Assembly: GCA_012845835.1 (NCBI GenBank)
Contig: JABAKD010000013.1
Coordinates: forward strand, 14,407,665-14,471,664
DNA from: Undaria pinnatifida
Taxonomy: Eukaryota; Sar; Phaeophyceae; Laminariales; Alariaceae
Length of the DNA stretch: 64,000 bases
Reading direction: 5' to 3'
Positions 39,549 to 58,252 of the stretch are shown one piece after another. The notes under the pieces are model-generated. The model was not told where the DNA came from. It was given only the letters and a program-made list of their open reading frames with translations, and searched no databases. Every line of letters starts with the position of its first letter. The stretch's first letter is position 1. The translations under genes were made by a program, and so were the position numbers.

Positions 39549-40160
39549 CGAGTTGTTGTTGTTGTTGTCGTTGTTGTTGTTGTTGTCGTTGTTGTTGTTG
39601 TTGTTGTTGTTGTTGCTGTGGTTGTTGTTATTGTTGTTCTCACATTAACTCGCATAATCAAGTCCTTGGGACAGGCTCCAGTCACTCTGGAGCTGAGGAA
39701 TGCCCCAGGGAAAAACACACACAACCCAAGGTGATACACGTATGTATCACAGCTGGCGCAATTCATGCCTCCACCAGAAACATATAAAAGTGAAATCGGG
39801 AGTCAGTCTACGATGTGCCAGGTCCCTGCCGGTGCATACGTCTCATTACTCACGCCTGAAGAAACCAACTATTCCGAAAGCCACCCAAGGAAGACTACCA
39901 AGCATATATTGCACGTAGTATCTATCACTCGTACGCATACGCACGACAGGCGTAAGTCAATTTGAGAAAAGAAACAAAGAAAAGAAAAGAAGATAAAGGA
40001 AAGGAAAGAAAAGAGAGAAAGCGAAACAAAACGAAAAAGGAAAGAAAAGAAGAGAAGAAAAAGACAAGAAAAGCAAGAAAAGACAAGAAGACAAGAAGAG
40101 GAAGCAAGGCAAAGTAAAAAATAGAAGAGGAAAAAGAAAAAGAAAAGAAAAGAAAGAAAA
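39549..40160 (-). repeat. Retroposon D, near full-length copy with (CAA)n tail
   Basis: On the minus strand: a pyrimidine-rich 5' part (40160-39960), then GACTTACGCCTGTCGTGCG, GTCTTCCTTGGGTGG, GACTCCCGATTTCAC, TCCAGAGTGACTGGAGCCTG and CGAGTTAATGTGAGAACAAC. It ends in a (CAA)n-type tail (TTG repeats 39549-39640). The order matches 40877-41397 and 54345-53795. Non-coding. The microsatellite tail suggests target-primed insertion by a LINE. Confidence 0.85.
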
Positions 40161-40162
40161 AC

Positions 40163-40515
40163 CGGTATTTATGGACCTGGCACATCGTAGACTGACTCCC
40201 GATCTCACTTTTATATGTTTCTCGTGGAGGCATGAATTGCGTCAGCTGTGATATAGACTATGCGTGTACCACCTAAGGTTTGTTTGTGCTTTTCCCTGGG
40301 GTGTTCGTCAGCCCCAGAGTGACTGGAGCCTGTCCTGTGACCACGGACTTGATTATGCGAGTTAATGTGAGAACAACAACAACAACAACAACAACAACAA
40401 CAACAACAACAACAACAACAACAACAACAACAACAACAACAACAACAACAACAACAACAACAACAACAACAACAACAACAAAAACAACAACAACAACAAA
40501 AACAACAACAACAAT
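40163..40515 (+). repeat. Retroposon D, 5' truncated, with very long (CAA)n tail
   Basis: Starts at GGACCTGGCACATCGTAG, continues through GAGTGACTGGAGCCTGTCCT and GCGAGTTAATGTGAGAAC, then about 140 nt of (CAA)n (40372-40515). Forms a large inverted repeat with the copy at 39549-40160. Confidence 0.85.
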
Positions 40516-40649
40516 ATTATTTCAAAAAACTGTACGCACTCGAAAAACACTTCCAATCAACCAAACGTCATGAAGACCTCCAGAAAATCAACCACAGCAT
40601 CTAAACGGAACCACACCCTGGATACCAAAGTCTTTAGTTTAATCTTGCA

Positions 40650-40870
40650 GATGTTTTGCACACACGCCGAAAACACGTACAGAGTAGGTGGCCCTTTAGA
40701 CCAGACTATAGTGGCAACCTGAATAATAGTGGCATAAAAATTTCCTCTGGGCAAAATCTCAATCCGATATAGTGGCACTTCCTCACTATTGAGGACGGGG
40801 TCCTCAATAATAGTGGCATGTTAGGCATCTCACACACCCAATAGTGGCAGTTCCAAACAGCGGGCCCCCA
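40650..40870 (+). repeat. ATAGTGGCA repeat cluster, left
   Basis: Outer sequence ACAGAGTAGGTGGCCCTTTA (40680-40699) followed by scattered TATAGTGGCA or AATAGTGGCA copies at about 40710, 40730, 40778, 40812 and 40849. Inverted counterpart at 43030-43195. Confidence 0.75.
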
Positions 40871-40876
40871 CTACTG

Positions 40877-41397
40877 CCTTTTTCTTTCTTCTCTTCTTTT
40901 TTCCTTGCCTCGCTTCCTCTTCTTGTCTTCTTGTCTTTTCTTGCTTTCCTTGTCTTTTTCTTTTCTTTTCTTTCCTTTTTCGTTTTGTTTCGCTTTCTTC
41001 TCTTTGTTTTCTTTTTTCTTTTCTTTGTTTCTTTTCTCAAATTGATTTACTTACGCCTGTGGTGCGTATGCGTCGTGATAGATACTACGTGTAATATATA
41101 TACGTGGTAGTCTTCCTTGGGTGGCAATCGGAGTAGTTGGTTTCTCCAGGCGCGAGTAATGAGACGTATGCACCGGCATGGACCCGGCACATCGTCGACT
41201 GACTCCCGATTTCACTTTTATATGTTTCCGGTGTAGGCATGAATTGCGTCAGCTGTGATATATGCGTGTACCACCTTGGGTTGTTGTGTGTGTTTTTCCC
41301 TGGGGTGTTCGTCAGATTCAGAGTGACTGGAGCCTGTCCTGTGACCACCGACTTGATTGTTATGCGAGTTAATGTGAGAACAACAACAACAACAACA
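40877..41397 (+). repeat. Retroposon D, full-length copy
   Basis: Pyrimidine-rich 5' part (40877-41040), conserved middle, then TGTGAGAACAACAACAACAA at 41371. Same order as the other D copies. Confidence 0.85.
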
Positions 41398-41559
41398 ACT
41401 GCTGGACCACACCTGCCCACACGCACCCTCAGCAGTGGGCGCCACACGTATCATGCCAGCCTGCGCGGACCTAGAACTGTGTAAACTCCCAAACCGACCA
41501 CTGGGAGAGAAAGACGGCCACGGATGTCGCCTTGGCTGCGGTGGCCGGCTTCATGGAAT

Positions 41560-55251: not shown

Positions 55252-55900
55252 ATGTTGTTGTAGTTGTTGTTGTTGTTGTTGTTGTAGTTGTTGTTGTTGT
55301 TGTAGTTGTTGTAGTTGTTGTTGTTGTTGTTGTTGTTGTTGTTGTTGTTGTTGTTGTTGTTAATGTTGTTGTTGTTGTTGTTGTTGGTGGTGTTGTTGTT
55401 GTTGGTGGTGTTGTTGTTGTTGTTGTTGTTGTTGTTGTTGGTGTTGTTGTTGTTGTTGTTGTTGTTGTTGTTGTTTTCTACCATTAACTCTTGTCAATAA
55501 TCTAGAGTCTGTGGTCACACAAGGTGCTCGAGCCCTAGCTAGGAAGATCCGAAAAACCAAGTGAAATCAAAATTCGTCCGGGAAATACTACGCTTTCCCG
55601 CCTAAAAACGCACGAAAAGGAAAAAGGCGCACAACAAGTGAAAAGGTCCAATGTGCAAACTGAACTCACATGGCCGCGGGTATCCACTCAACTAGAGCAT
55701 AGAGTTGCCCCGTCCCCACAACTAACCAACTCGCGGCTACAAACTACAGCGGTTGGGCTGCCTGCACCGTACGAACCGTGCGGTAATCGTAAGTATAGAC
55801 GAACGCGCCTGCTGTCTGGAGTGCTGTCAGAGTGCCGACCCTCGGGCATGCAGTGAAACAAGAGCAATGGAACCAAAAACCACAGTACAGATATCAAATG
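55252..55900 (-). repeat. Retroposon E, full-length, long (CAA)n tail
   Basis: Minus strand from 55900: TTTTGGTTCCATTGCTCTTG, GGTGCAGGCAGCCCAACCGC, GATACCCGCGGCCATGTGAG, GCGGGAAAGCGTAGTATTTC, GGGCTCGAGCACCTTGTGTG and AAGAGTTAATGGTAGAAAAC. The CAA tail is about 220 nt, with CAC and CTA variants (55252-55476 on plus). Best reference copy of E. Confidence 0.85.
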
Positions 55901-55989
55901 TAGTATCGTCCGTGCAGGGCAATTTGTCCAATCACGGTTTGTTTGGATTACAATCGTTAAAACTTCATTCTGCGGCACAACACACTTGT

Positions 55990-56110
55990 TAGTTGTTGTT
56001 GTTTTCTCACATTACAGTAACTCTTCTTGTCAAACATCTTGAGTCGGTGGTCACACAAAGGTGCTGGAGCCCTAGGAAGATCCGAAAAACCAAGTGAAAT
56101 CAAATTTCAC
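55990..56110 (-). repeat. Retroposon E, 3' fragment
   Basis: Minus-strand end of E from TTTCACTTGGTTTTTCGGAT to a short CAA tail at 55990-56005. Confidence 0.8.
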
Positions 56111-57029
56111 TACCCCTCTTCGAAACCTCCGCCTTACCCCCACCGGTTGTATGGTCCGTGCAGGGCAATTCATCCAATCACTTTTTCGGTCATACCTTCG
56201 AAAGTTGAAACTACGATATTCGTGATCGCCCGTGTCGAGATACGTCGGAATTCGTTGAGTTTTGTGTACAAGAAAAAACCAGGGCGTTCGGGGACAGGGA
56301 TAGCGCATACACCCAACTAACCACCACCACCCGCAGAGGGGCCGAACAACCAACAAAGTAATTCTCACATTTTTTTTTTTTTTTTTTTTGTGTGGGAATC
56401 GTTTCGGAGAGGCATACCCTCGCACAAGGCGAACAACGTAACATTACAAGGTTATGTTCTGTAGGGTTTGTGGATTCCGAGTAAGGGTATAGGAGTCTTA
56501 CAAAACTTCCAGAAGTTTCGGGTACGAGTATGGAAGTGTTCATGAACTCATAAAAGTTCCGGGTATTGTGGCGCAGGCATACAGATATCACAGAAGTTCA
56601 GGGCGGGTAAAAAGCATGCTGTATGTACCCGTACCCCGGGTATTTTGACATGGGGCGTACAAAACTAACAGAAGTTCCGGGTACGGGTATACAAGTTTTA
56701 CAGAACTTCCACAAGTCCCGGGTATCGTGGCACGGTGGTACATAACTTACAGAAGTTCCGGGCAGGTATAAAAATGATGTACCCGTACGCCGGGTCTTTG
56801 TGACCCTGGCGTACAGAACATACAGAAGATCCGGGCACGGGTATGGGTGTCCTACAGAAGGTACAGACGTTATTTGTGGGTTAATTCCCGGGGTATATAC
56901 CCCGGATATGGTTCTGTGTGCACCCTACGGACAGAACGCGAATAGGAAGTTCGGGTACGGGTGGGTGTACGTGCTGTACAAAAGTCACAGACGTTCCGGG
57001 TGCGGTTAATAGCCGGGTAAGTACCCGCT

Positions 57030-57600
57030 TCAAAAAGGGGCGAAAAAACAACAAATAAATTGACTCGTAAAAAAGACACCATTATTTGTCAAGGCATTTC
57101 CAATATTACTGCGATTGGCACACTGCATACACTTCTTACTGATTGACACTTACTTATAAAAATAACACATGTATATACTGGCAACATACTTATCATAGTA
57201 GTCATTTTTTCTTGTACGTGCTTTCGTCCTCTAACCCGTTTGTGTTGTTGGTGCTGTTTTCCACAATTTTCAACATTCTCAATAATCATTAAATCTGAAC
57301 CTTTCCAACTTCCTGGGAAACGACTTCTTCCTTCCGCGGTCACGGGTTTACCTCCAAATTAACGCAATGAGCACAACATGAACAATACGATGAGGTATAA
57401 CTAATACTACTATATACTACTACTACTACTACGCGTCTCAACGCTTTGGTTCTAGAGAGTTGTATAAAGCGCATACGATATTGTGAGGGGGTTTGCTTCT
57501 GTGTGTAATTTCGAGTAGGGTTGTGGCGTCAACGTGACGGATGGGACATGGCATCAGAATGTGCATAACACGAGACATGAAGTCCGAATGCAATCGATGG
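57030..57600. other. AT-rich spacer in the satellite
   Basis: No gene. Contains a short (TAC)n run at 57407-57433. Confidence 0.5.
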
Positions 57601-58141
57601 ACCCTAATCTTTACCGGCCACTGCGGGTATTGTTACTAACGTATACCCGTACCCGGGGTACTGTGCCACTTTCTTACAGGACTCACAGAAGTTCCGAGCG
57701 GGTATCAAATGCTGTACACGTACCCCAGGCATTGTGGCCACGGGTGTACAGAACTTCCTGAAGTTCCGGGTACGGGTATGGAAGTCGTCCAGAACTTCCA
57801 GAAGTTCCGGGAACGGGTATGAATGTCCTACAGAACTTATAGGAGTTCTTCGTGGGGTAATAGTCGGCGTAATACCCAGGTGCTGTTTGTACGTACGCTA
57901 CAGAACATAACCCTGTAACATTACGTCTCGCATCCCTCGTTTTGTTCATGGACCAGGTACGACAACAATAAGTATATTTTTTCGACAGGGGCGACACAGC
58001 AGTGGTGTACAATACAAATATTACAATGTTACGTTCTGTAGGGTTTGTGGATTCCGGGTAAGGATATGGAAGTCTTCCAGAACTTCCGAAAGTTTCGGGT
58101 ACGGGTATGAACGTGTTACAAAACTTCCAGAAGTTCCGGGT

Positions 58142-58252
58142 CGTTGTTGTTGTTGTTCTCACATTGACCATTGTAAAAATCTAGAGTCCGTGGTCACACA
58201 AAGGTGTTGGAGTCCTAGGAAGATCCGAAAAACCAAATGAAATCGAAATTCG
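58142..58252 (-). repeat. Retroposon E, 3' fragment in the satellite
   Basis: GTTGTTGTTGTTGTTCTCAC (58143-58162) then E 3' sequence to ATTTCATTTGG. Inserted into the satellite unit. Confidence 0.8.

Follow-up and report, generated by a model that had tools for sequence, protein, structure and literature searches.

A CAA-tailed LINE, a putative non-coding passenger with the same 3' end, and their association with CAA microsatellites in Undaria pinnatifida

The stretch of the Undaria pinnatifida (Phaeophyceae, Laminariales) genome analysed here, hereafter the window, comprises 64,000 nt (assembly GCA_012845835.1, contig JABAKD010000013.1, positions 14,407,665 to 14,471,664 of the forward strand; G+C 49.2%) and carries two families of dispersed repeats, D and E, which end in a common 3' tail followed by CAA repeats. 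One copy of a long interspersed nuclear element (LINE; locus L032) served as the D reference, a majority sequence as the E reference, and single copies represented two further bodies; mapping of all four showed that the window holds 7 tailed D copies, 5 tailed E copies, and 1 tailless E copy. The initial annotation had reported at least six D and six E copies with a shared end; the shared end is real, but the sixth E copy has no tail, and the exact 13-mer GTTAATGTGAGAA occurs in only six tails (at 39637, 40361, 41368, 50963, 53338, and 53816). With up to two mismatches, the 13-mer has 14 matches in the window, whereas 100 shuffles gave 1.66 on average and 8 at most. Both E copies that bear long arrays carry variants of it. 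The junction to the CAA repeats is mostly GAGAAAACAAC in E and GAGAACAAC in D. Two older D copies are interrupted by younger D insertions. All four long CAA/TTG arrays adjoin a D or E tail on its 3' side, just as had been proposed. The copies and arrays are the following:

39637-40161, minus strand: D copy (LINE 3' end), reference 2158-2681, inside the older D copy 39431-40373; its CAA tail is the TTG array 39552-39636
39431-39549, plus strand: older D copy, left piece, reference 2366-2480, broken by the D copy at 39637-40161
40172-40373, plus strand: older D copy, right piece, reference 2486-2681, with the motif at its end and the array 40374-40514 next to it
40879-41380, plus strand: D copy, reference 2186-2681, tail 41381-41398
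53273-53350, plus strand: D copy, last 78 nt only, short CAA tail
53816-54612, minus strand: D copy that interrupts an older D copy, reference 1890-2681 with 95% identity over 802 aligned positions, short tail
53503-53751, plus strand: that older D copy, first piece, reference 2189-2442, continuing at 54613-54726 and 54926-55043
54613-54726, plus strand: the same older D copy (53503-55043), middle piece, reference 2462-2569
54926-55043, plus strand: the same older D copy (53503-55043), 3' piece, reference 2565-2681, variant motif TTAATCTAGAGAA, tail 55044-55055
32651-32731, minus strand: D copy outside the span of the initial annotation, variant motif GTAAATGTGAGGA and (CAA)3
43469-43585, minus strand: E copy, reference 1137-1254, motif ending in GAGAC, long array 43220-43468 adjoining
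50724-50975, plus strand: E copy, reference 1004-1255, exact motif, short tail
51626-52548, minus strand: E copy without a 3' tail, reference 380-1141, in two aligned pieces
55476-55897, minus strand: E copy, reference 840-1255, variant motif GTTAATGGTAGAA, long array adjoining
56004-56108, minus strand: E copy with a variant 3' end, aligned to reference 1159-1242, short tail
58156-58253, minus strand: E copy, reference 1157-1255, tail 58144-58155
39552-39638, minus strand: CAA array of the D copy at 39637
40372-40514, plus strand: CAA array of the older D copy (39431-40373)
43220-43469, minus strand: CAA array of the E copy at 43469, about 248 nt with interruptions
55253-55475, minus strand: CAA array of the E copy at 55476

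D had been taken for a separate retroposon resembling short interspersed nuclear elements (SINEs). It is instead the 5'-truncated 3' end of an autonomous LINE (a non-long terminal repeat retrotransposon) with a single open reading frame (ORF) of about 1,260 codons, in which an apurinic/apyrimidinic (APE)-type endonuclease precedes the reverse transcriptase (RT). At L032, the D body runs upstream into a 655-amino-acid (aa) ORF, 598 aa of which match RVT_1 (E-value 3.7e-35), with LINE-1 ORF2 and R2 proteins among the PDB relatives found; the RT frame stops 716 nt before the end of the motif. When the genome (511,146,479 bp, 68 contigs) was searched with the 598 aa and 73 of 7,919 first-look candidates were scored, 13 of the 73 copies were found to have ORFs of 1,193-1,285 aa. 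In each of these 13 longest-ORF copies, an independent search, matched by coordinates, placed the APE-type endonuclease domain PF03372 upstream of the RT within one ORF, with weak matches of 27.9-29.5 bits that are above the curated 24.5. The continuity of coding region and tail was followed with a 1,419-nt query that begins at the RT C-terminus and finishes on the final base of the motif: of 40 copies scored among 5,473 first-look candidates, 36 align over all 1,419 nt, and the other four stop at 1,418, 1,407, 1,403, and 1,280. Five of the 36 unbroken copies (C38:10.22 Mb, C35:5.93, C24:2.00, C31:3.09, and C36:1.98) are also among the 13 with long ORFs. The start points of D copies are scattered along the reference, which is 5' truncation, and the 3' end is constant. 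The one-ORF architecture and the repeat tail are compatible with membership in the RTE or RTEX clade.

The initial annotation had anticipated a LINE sharing this 3' end and its (CAA)n tail; such a LINE exists, and it is abundant. The exact 13-mer occurs 6,439 times genome-wide (10 times for the same letters reversed, used as a control), and the motif followed by (CAA)3 occurs 3,168 times (control 0); the D-type tail TTAATGTGAGAA(CAA)4 has 9,587 sites with up to three mismatches (control 41), and the E-type junction 1,595 with up to two (control 0). A second endonuclease-bearing, LINE-like family is also present, with 19 rows of 1,250-aa ORFs and two of 1,249 aa (e.g., C2:9524603-9525370 and C1:10665510-10666277).

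E, in turn, appears to be a LINE-dependent, non-autonomous retroposon, a view that draws on its lack of coding capacity and on the 3' end that it has in common with the LINE. We studied 30 E loci, chosen by similarity to a 273-nt piece of E (40 scored of 2,484 candidates). The 5' end is fixed: 17 of the 30 begin with the same CTTCGTT (among them L051, with an internal gap of about 124 nt), 2 more begin within a few bases of it, and 11 are truncated. The full length is about 1,255 nt (1.26 kb). The longest ORF is 140 aa in the majority sequence and at most 174 aa in eight single copies. SINEs have a size limit of about 700 bp. A permissive Rfam search of four full-length E loci revealed no tRNA, 5S, or signal recognition particle RNA head, a degenerate head being still possible, and gave two sub-threshold matches to unrelated families. 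The description of E as SINE-like was right as to its non-coding nature and its LINE-shared 3' end, but with its length and no head for RNA polymerase III (Pol III) or tRNA-derived head found, E is not a classical SINE. At L056, E and its CAA tail interrupt a target that can be read uninterrupted in the flank of L055; the 5' junction has six extra bases and no duplication. If the 5' end of a LINE should prove to resemble CTTCGTTCCCCC, E would be a deletion derivative. A hepatitis delta virus-like ribozyme at the E 5' end was considered and rejected: the order of pairing was suggestive of such a template, but Rfam gave no match, and the 8-bp hairpin (GCGA loop) of the minimum-energy fold uses letters needed for P1. 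At L045, the E copy is inserted beside CCTAACCCTAACC repeats in its 5' flank, telomere-like in look.

The end shared by D and E proved real but longer than first described. In BLAST alignments, the D and E references have 44 nt in common at 77% identity (E-value 0.004), and the tail of T, one of the two further bodies, matches D over 55 nt at 91% and E over 44 nt at 82%; beyond the tails, the bodies match only over 17 nt, between D and the second further body, F. In an alignment of ten tails, the blocks TGTGACCACGG and GAGTTAATGTGA are conserved on either side of a loop that varies in length. Together they close a 10-bp stem with an AA bulge, at whose inner end D has a G-C pair and E a U-A pair. 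Of 71 tails found by pattern, 61 could be parsed, with the best-pairing register taken, and ten could not; all ten pairs are present in 29 of the 31 parsed D-type tails (T copies included) and in 25 of the 30 parsed E-type tails (among them L011, with a D-like tail). Across the ten aligned tails (nine distinct), 98.9% of cells pair, compared with 17-44% for slid partners and an average of 94.0% for shuffles, 8 of 500 of which reach the observed value. An example from the window is the following:

50933-50975, plus strand: hairpin in the E copy 50724-50975, conserved GTGACCACGG.CT and AGTTAATGTGAGAA around a variable loop, stem CACGGACTnn / nnAGTT-AA-TGTG

We infer that the hairpin is the signal recognised by the enzyme and that E parasitises the D-LINE or a relative of it. 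Taken as a whole, the findings make it probable that the D-LINE and E are copied by the enzyme of the LINE, or of a close relative, by way of the 3' hairpin, with CAA tails sometimes growing into microsatellites. The enzyme would bind the hairpin common to D and E RNAs (CACGGACTnn...nnAGTTAATGTG, then AGAA), the E RNA being copied by the protein of the D-LINE or its close relative. Target-primed reverse transcription would start in the (CAA)n tail, and each insertion would therefore bring a short CAA tail, a minority of which would later lengthen into long microsatellites.

Several observations weigh against this reading. The support from covariation is modest, because both sides have changed at only one of the ten stem pairs, which 477 of 500 shuffles also reach, and that change separates the families rather than recurring. 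The E tail folds no better than its shuffles (z 0.29; D tail z -1.92). Its loop is 12 nt long, compared with 6 nt in D, and the CAA junctions differ as described above. Target repeats are not general: among 72 copies, duplicates included, 14 have a match of at least 7 nt, compared with about 4.4% of mismatched pairs, and only some of these matches abut both junctions. Tail length shows no significant correlation with divergence in D (n = 32) or E (n = 36), with duplicates in both sets, and growth of tails with age, which we had considered, is unsupported by this comparison.

Since the E tail departs from that of D in loop and junction, the partner of E may be another LINE. E would then depend on a family with its own E-type tail (GAGTTAATGTGAGAAAACAAC), such as the one with the 1,250-aa ORF, and its likeness to D would reflect the common ancestry of the LINEs. 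This alternative, which gains from the existence of a second endonuclease family with 1,249-1,250-aa ORFs and 21 PF03372 rows and likewise counts against dependence on the D-LINE, is rather unlikely in our judgement, but it survives best. No E tail was found on another long body among 30 motif-seeded and 30 E-seeded loci, a weak argument given that the former were selected for the D-type junction and the latter for the E body.

Copying through a shared hairpin leaves the origin of the microsatellites to be weighed. Tails were measured in 32 copies of D and 36 of E, duplicates counted, and are mostly 7-27 nt long; longer ones occur five times in D (36-143 nt) and three times in E (223-248 nt), two of these E tails belonging to the same copy. 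As most tails are short, the long arrays probably grew after insertion. At L001, the last 19 nt of D and (CAA)4 are flanked by 15-nt target repeats (13 nt when the bases shared with the tail or the D end are subtracted), and the CAA therefore arrives with the insertion. It had been suggested that D and E tails seed the CAA microsatellites of this genome, and for most long arrays this is likely. A D or E tail adjoins every long array in the window. By alignment, the same is true of nine among ten non-seed arrays, all distinct (the nine are five window arrays and those at L015, L016, L037, and L069; the exception is L011), a small sample biased towards sequence near D and E copies. A genome-wide majority was not recovered with exact strings: in the first 6.44 Mb of contig C1, such strings link 15 of 44 arrays to a tail, 10 of these through the 13-mer, and other motif lists attach 23 of 91 in the first 10.78 Mb.

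These last figures, together with the array at L011:1126, which has no D or E tail, would fit a situation in which most long CAA arrays are independent of D and E and the window reflects the local effect of a D/E cluster. However, exact strings miss many links, because only three of the nine arrays linked by alignment carry the exact 13-mer, and the 9,587 D-type tail sites (up to three mismatches) exceed the 5,028 perfect (CAA)6 runs ending in a non-C base (other endings uncounted). Independence of most arrays thus seems to us unlikely, and a little more so than a separate partner for E. The reverse order of events, in which CAA arrays came first and D and E inserted beside them through a preference of the endonuclease or the cDNA for CAA, would also place an array next to the tail in all four window cases. 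It is nevertheless very improbable: in the examined copies the array is always 3' and in the same orientation (0 of 44 arrays on the opposite strand), CAA tails are only 7-27 nt long in most copies, and the CAA of L001 lies within target repeats. Least probable of all is that D and E are both SINE-like and moved by a third, unseen LINE, which the shared tail of the two families and the short window D copies, confined to the non-coding 3' part of the reference, might suggest, but which is refuted for D by a body unbroken into the RT frame in 36 of 40 copies, five of them also with an endonuclease match in the ORF.

Two more bodies, T and F, carry D tails. The T body is found at L026 and L029 (also at L035 and L036, and in part at L039) and at 15575-15651 of the window; it is at least about 1.4 kb long, has no ORF longer than 154 aa in L036, and ends in a D-like 55-nt tail with CAA. 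The F body, found at L009 and L028 (also L033 and L034, and in part L039), consists of tandem units of about 470 nt and is joined to approximately the last 378 nt of D, with the same junction in both copies. In the most far-reaching reading, no fewer than three non-coding bodies would each have acquired the hairpin of one LINE with its (CAA)n independently (about 44 nt in E, 55 nt in T, and 378 nt in F); this single hairpin would drive much of the LINE-dependent insertion and would be the main source of CAA/TTG microsatellites in this genome. We offer this extension tentatively, as a possibility falling somewhat short of even.

Other features of these sequences deserve mention. Window segments 16109-16464 and 25275-25598 are 74% and 77% identical to T 844-1178 and end in a minus-strand tRNA-like piece, and A- and B-box-like motifs are present in the tRNA-like region of the T copies at L035 and L036; ARAGORN found no tRNA in five T-related loci. 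The two tRNA-like window copies are possibly a tRNA-derived SINE, also present in antisense inside T. Loci L015-L018 (contig C1, 3.10 and 3.136 Mb) represent a duplicated segment with D tails, 99.7-99.9% identical over at least 1.5 kb. In the window, inverted repeats of another family (38862-39154 and 41559-41852, 91-95% complementary) flank a D cluster, and positions 56500-60360 hold a cluster of diverged tandem repeats of about 40 bp (AGAAGTTCCGGGTACGGGTATGAAAGTCC-like), with a 75-bp array at 58880-59078.

The D/E system appears to work like known pairs of LINEs and their parasites, including one from another brown alga, Ectocarpus. According to the sections of the Ectocarpus study available to us (PMC12477816), RTEX-N1_Ec32 is present in more than 6,000 copies and has a 3' end conserved with the autonomous RTE-X elements RTEX-1 and RTEX-2_Ec32; like E, it is thus an abundant, non-autonomous brown algal element that has its 3' end in common with a LINE. 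The same sections describe its 5' region as being of unknown origin and Ectocarpus LINEs as often 5'-truncated, as is D (PMC12477816). The likeness is one of description; these sections mention neither a tail repeat nor a hairpin, and RTEX-N1_Ec32 measures about 600 bp (PMC12477816), compared with about 1,255 nt for E. In the available part of a study of RTE and RTEX elements (PMC3747384), the tobacco TS SINE is paired with an RTE that ends in TTG repeats, green-algal RTEX tails include (CAA)n, and 3' stem-loops are described for stringent 3'-end recognition. Such SINE/LINE pairs resemble D and E in their common 3' end and in a repeat tail other than poly(A), whereas TS is a SINE proper (PMC3747384) and E is longer, with no Pol III head found. 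Full-length RTE/RTEX elements of kelp, of which RTE-2 and RTEX-1 are recently inserted according to a partial account, can likewise be compared to the D-LINE by description. A literature search limited to a few queries did not find a LINE-CAA microsatellite link of this kind in print, and the capture of one tail by several bodies would be the most interesting part of the system.

For the Undaria genome, the available part of the genome paper attributes 0.003% of the sequence to SINEs and 36.1% to unknown repeats (PMC7058681); if the same genome is concerned, E-type elements may sit hidden in the unknown-repeat class of that paper. The D and E tails suggest a reason for the frequency of CAA arrays in this genome, where microsatellite markers based on CAA may lie on dispersed repeats. 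Finally, this LINE-parasite system offers a short hairpin as the candidate for recognition and, in its captured tails, a natural series of lengths, so that the minimal 3'-recognition signal could be tested.

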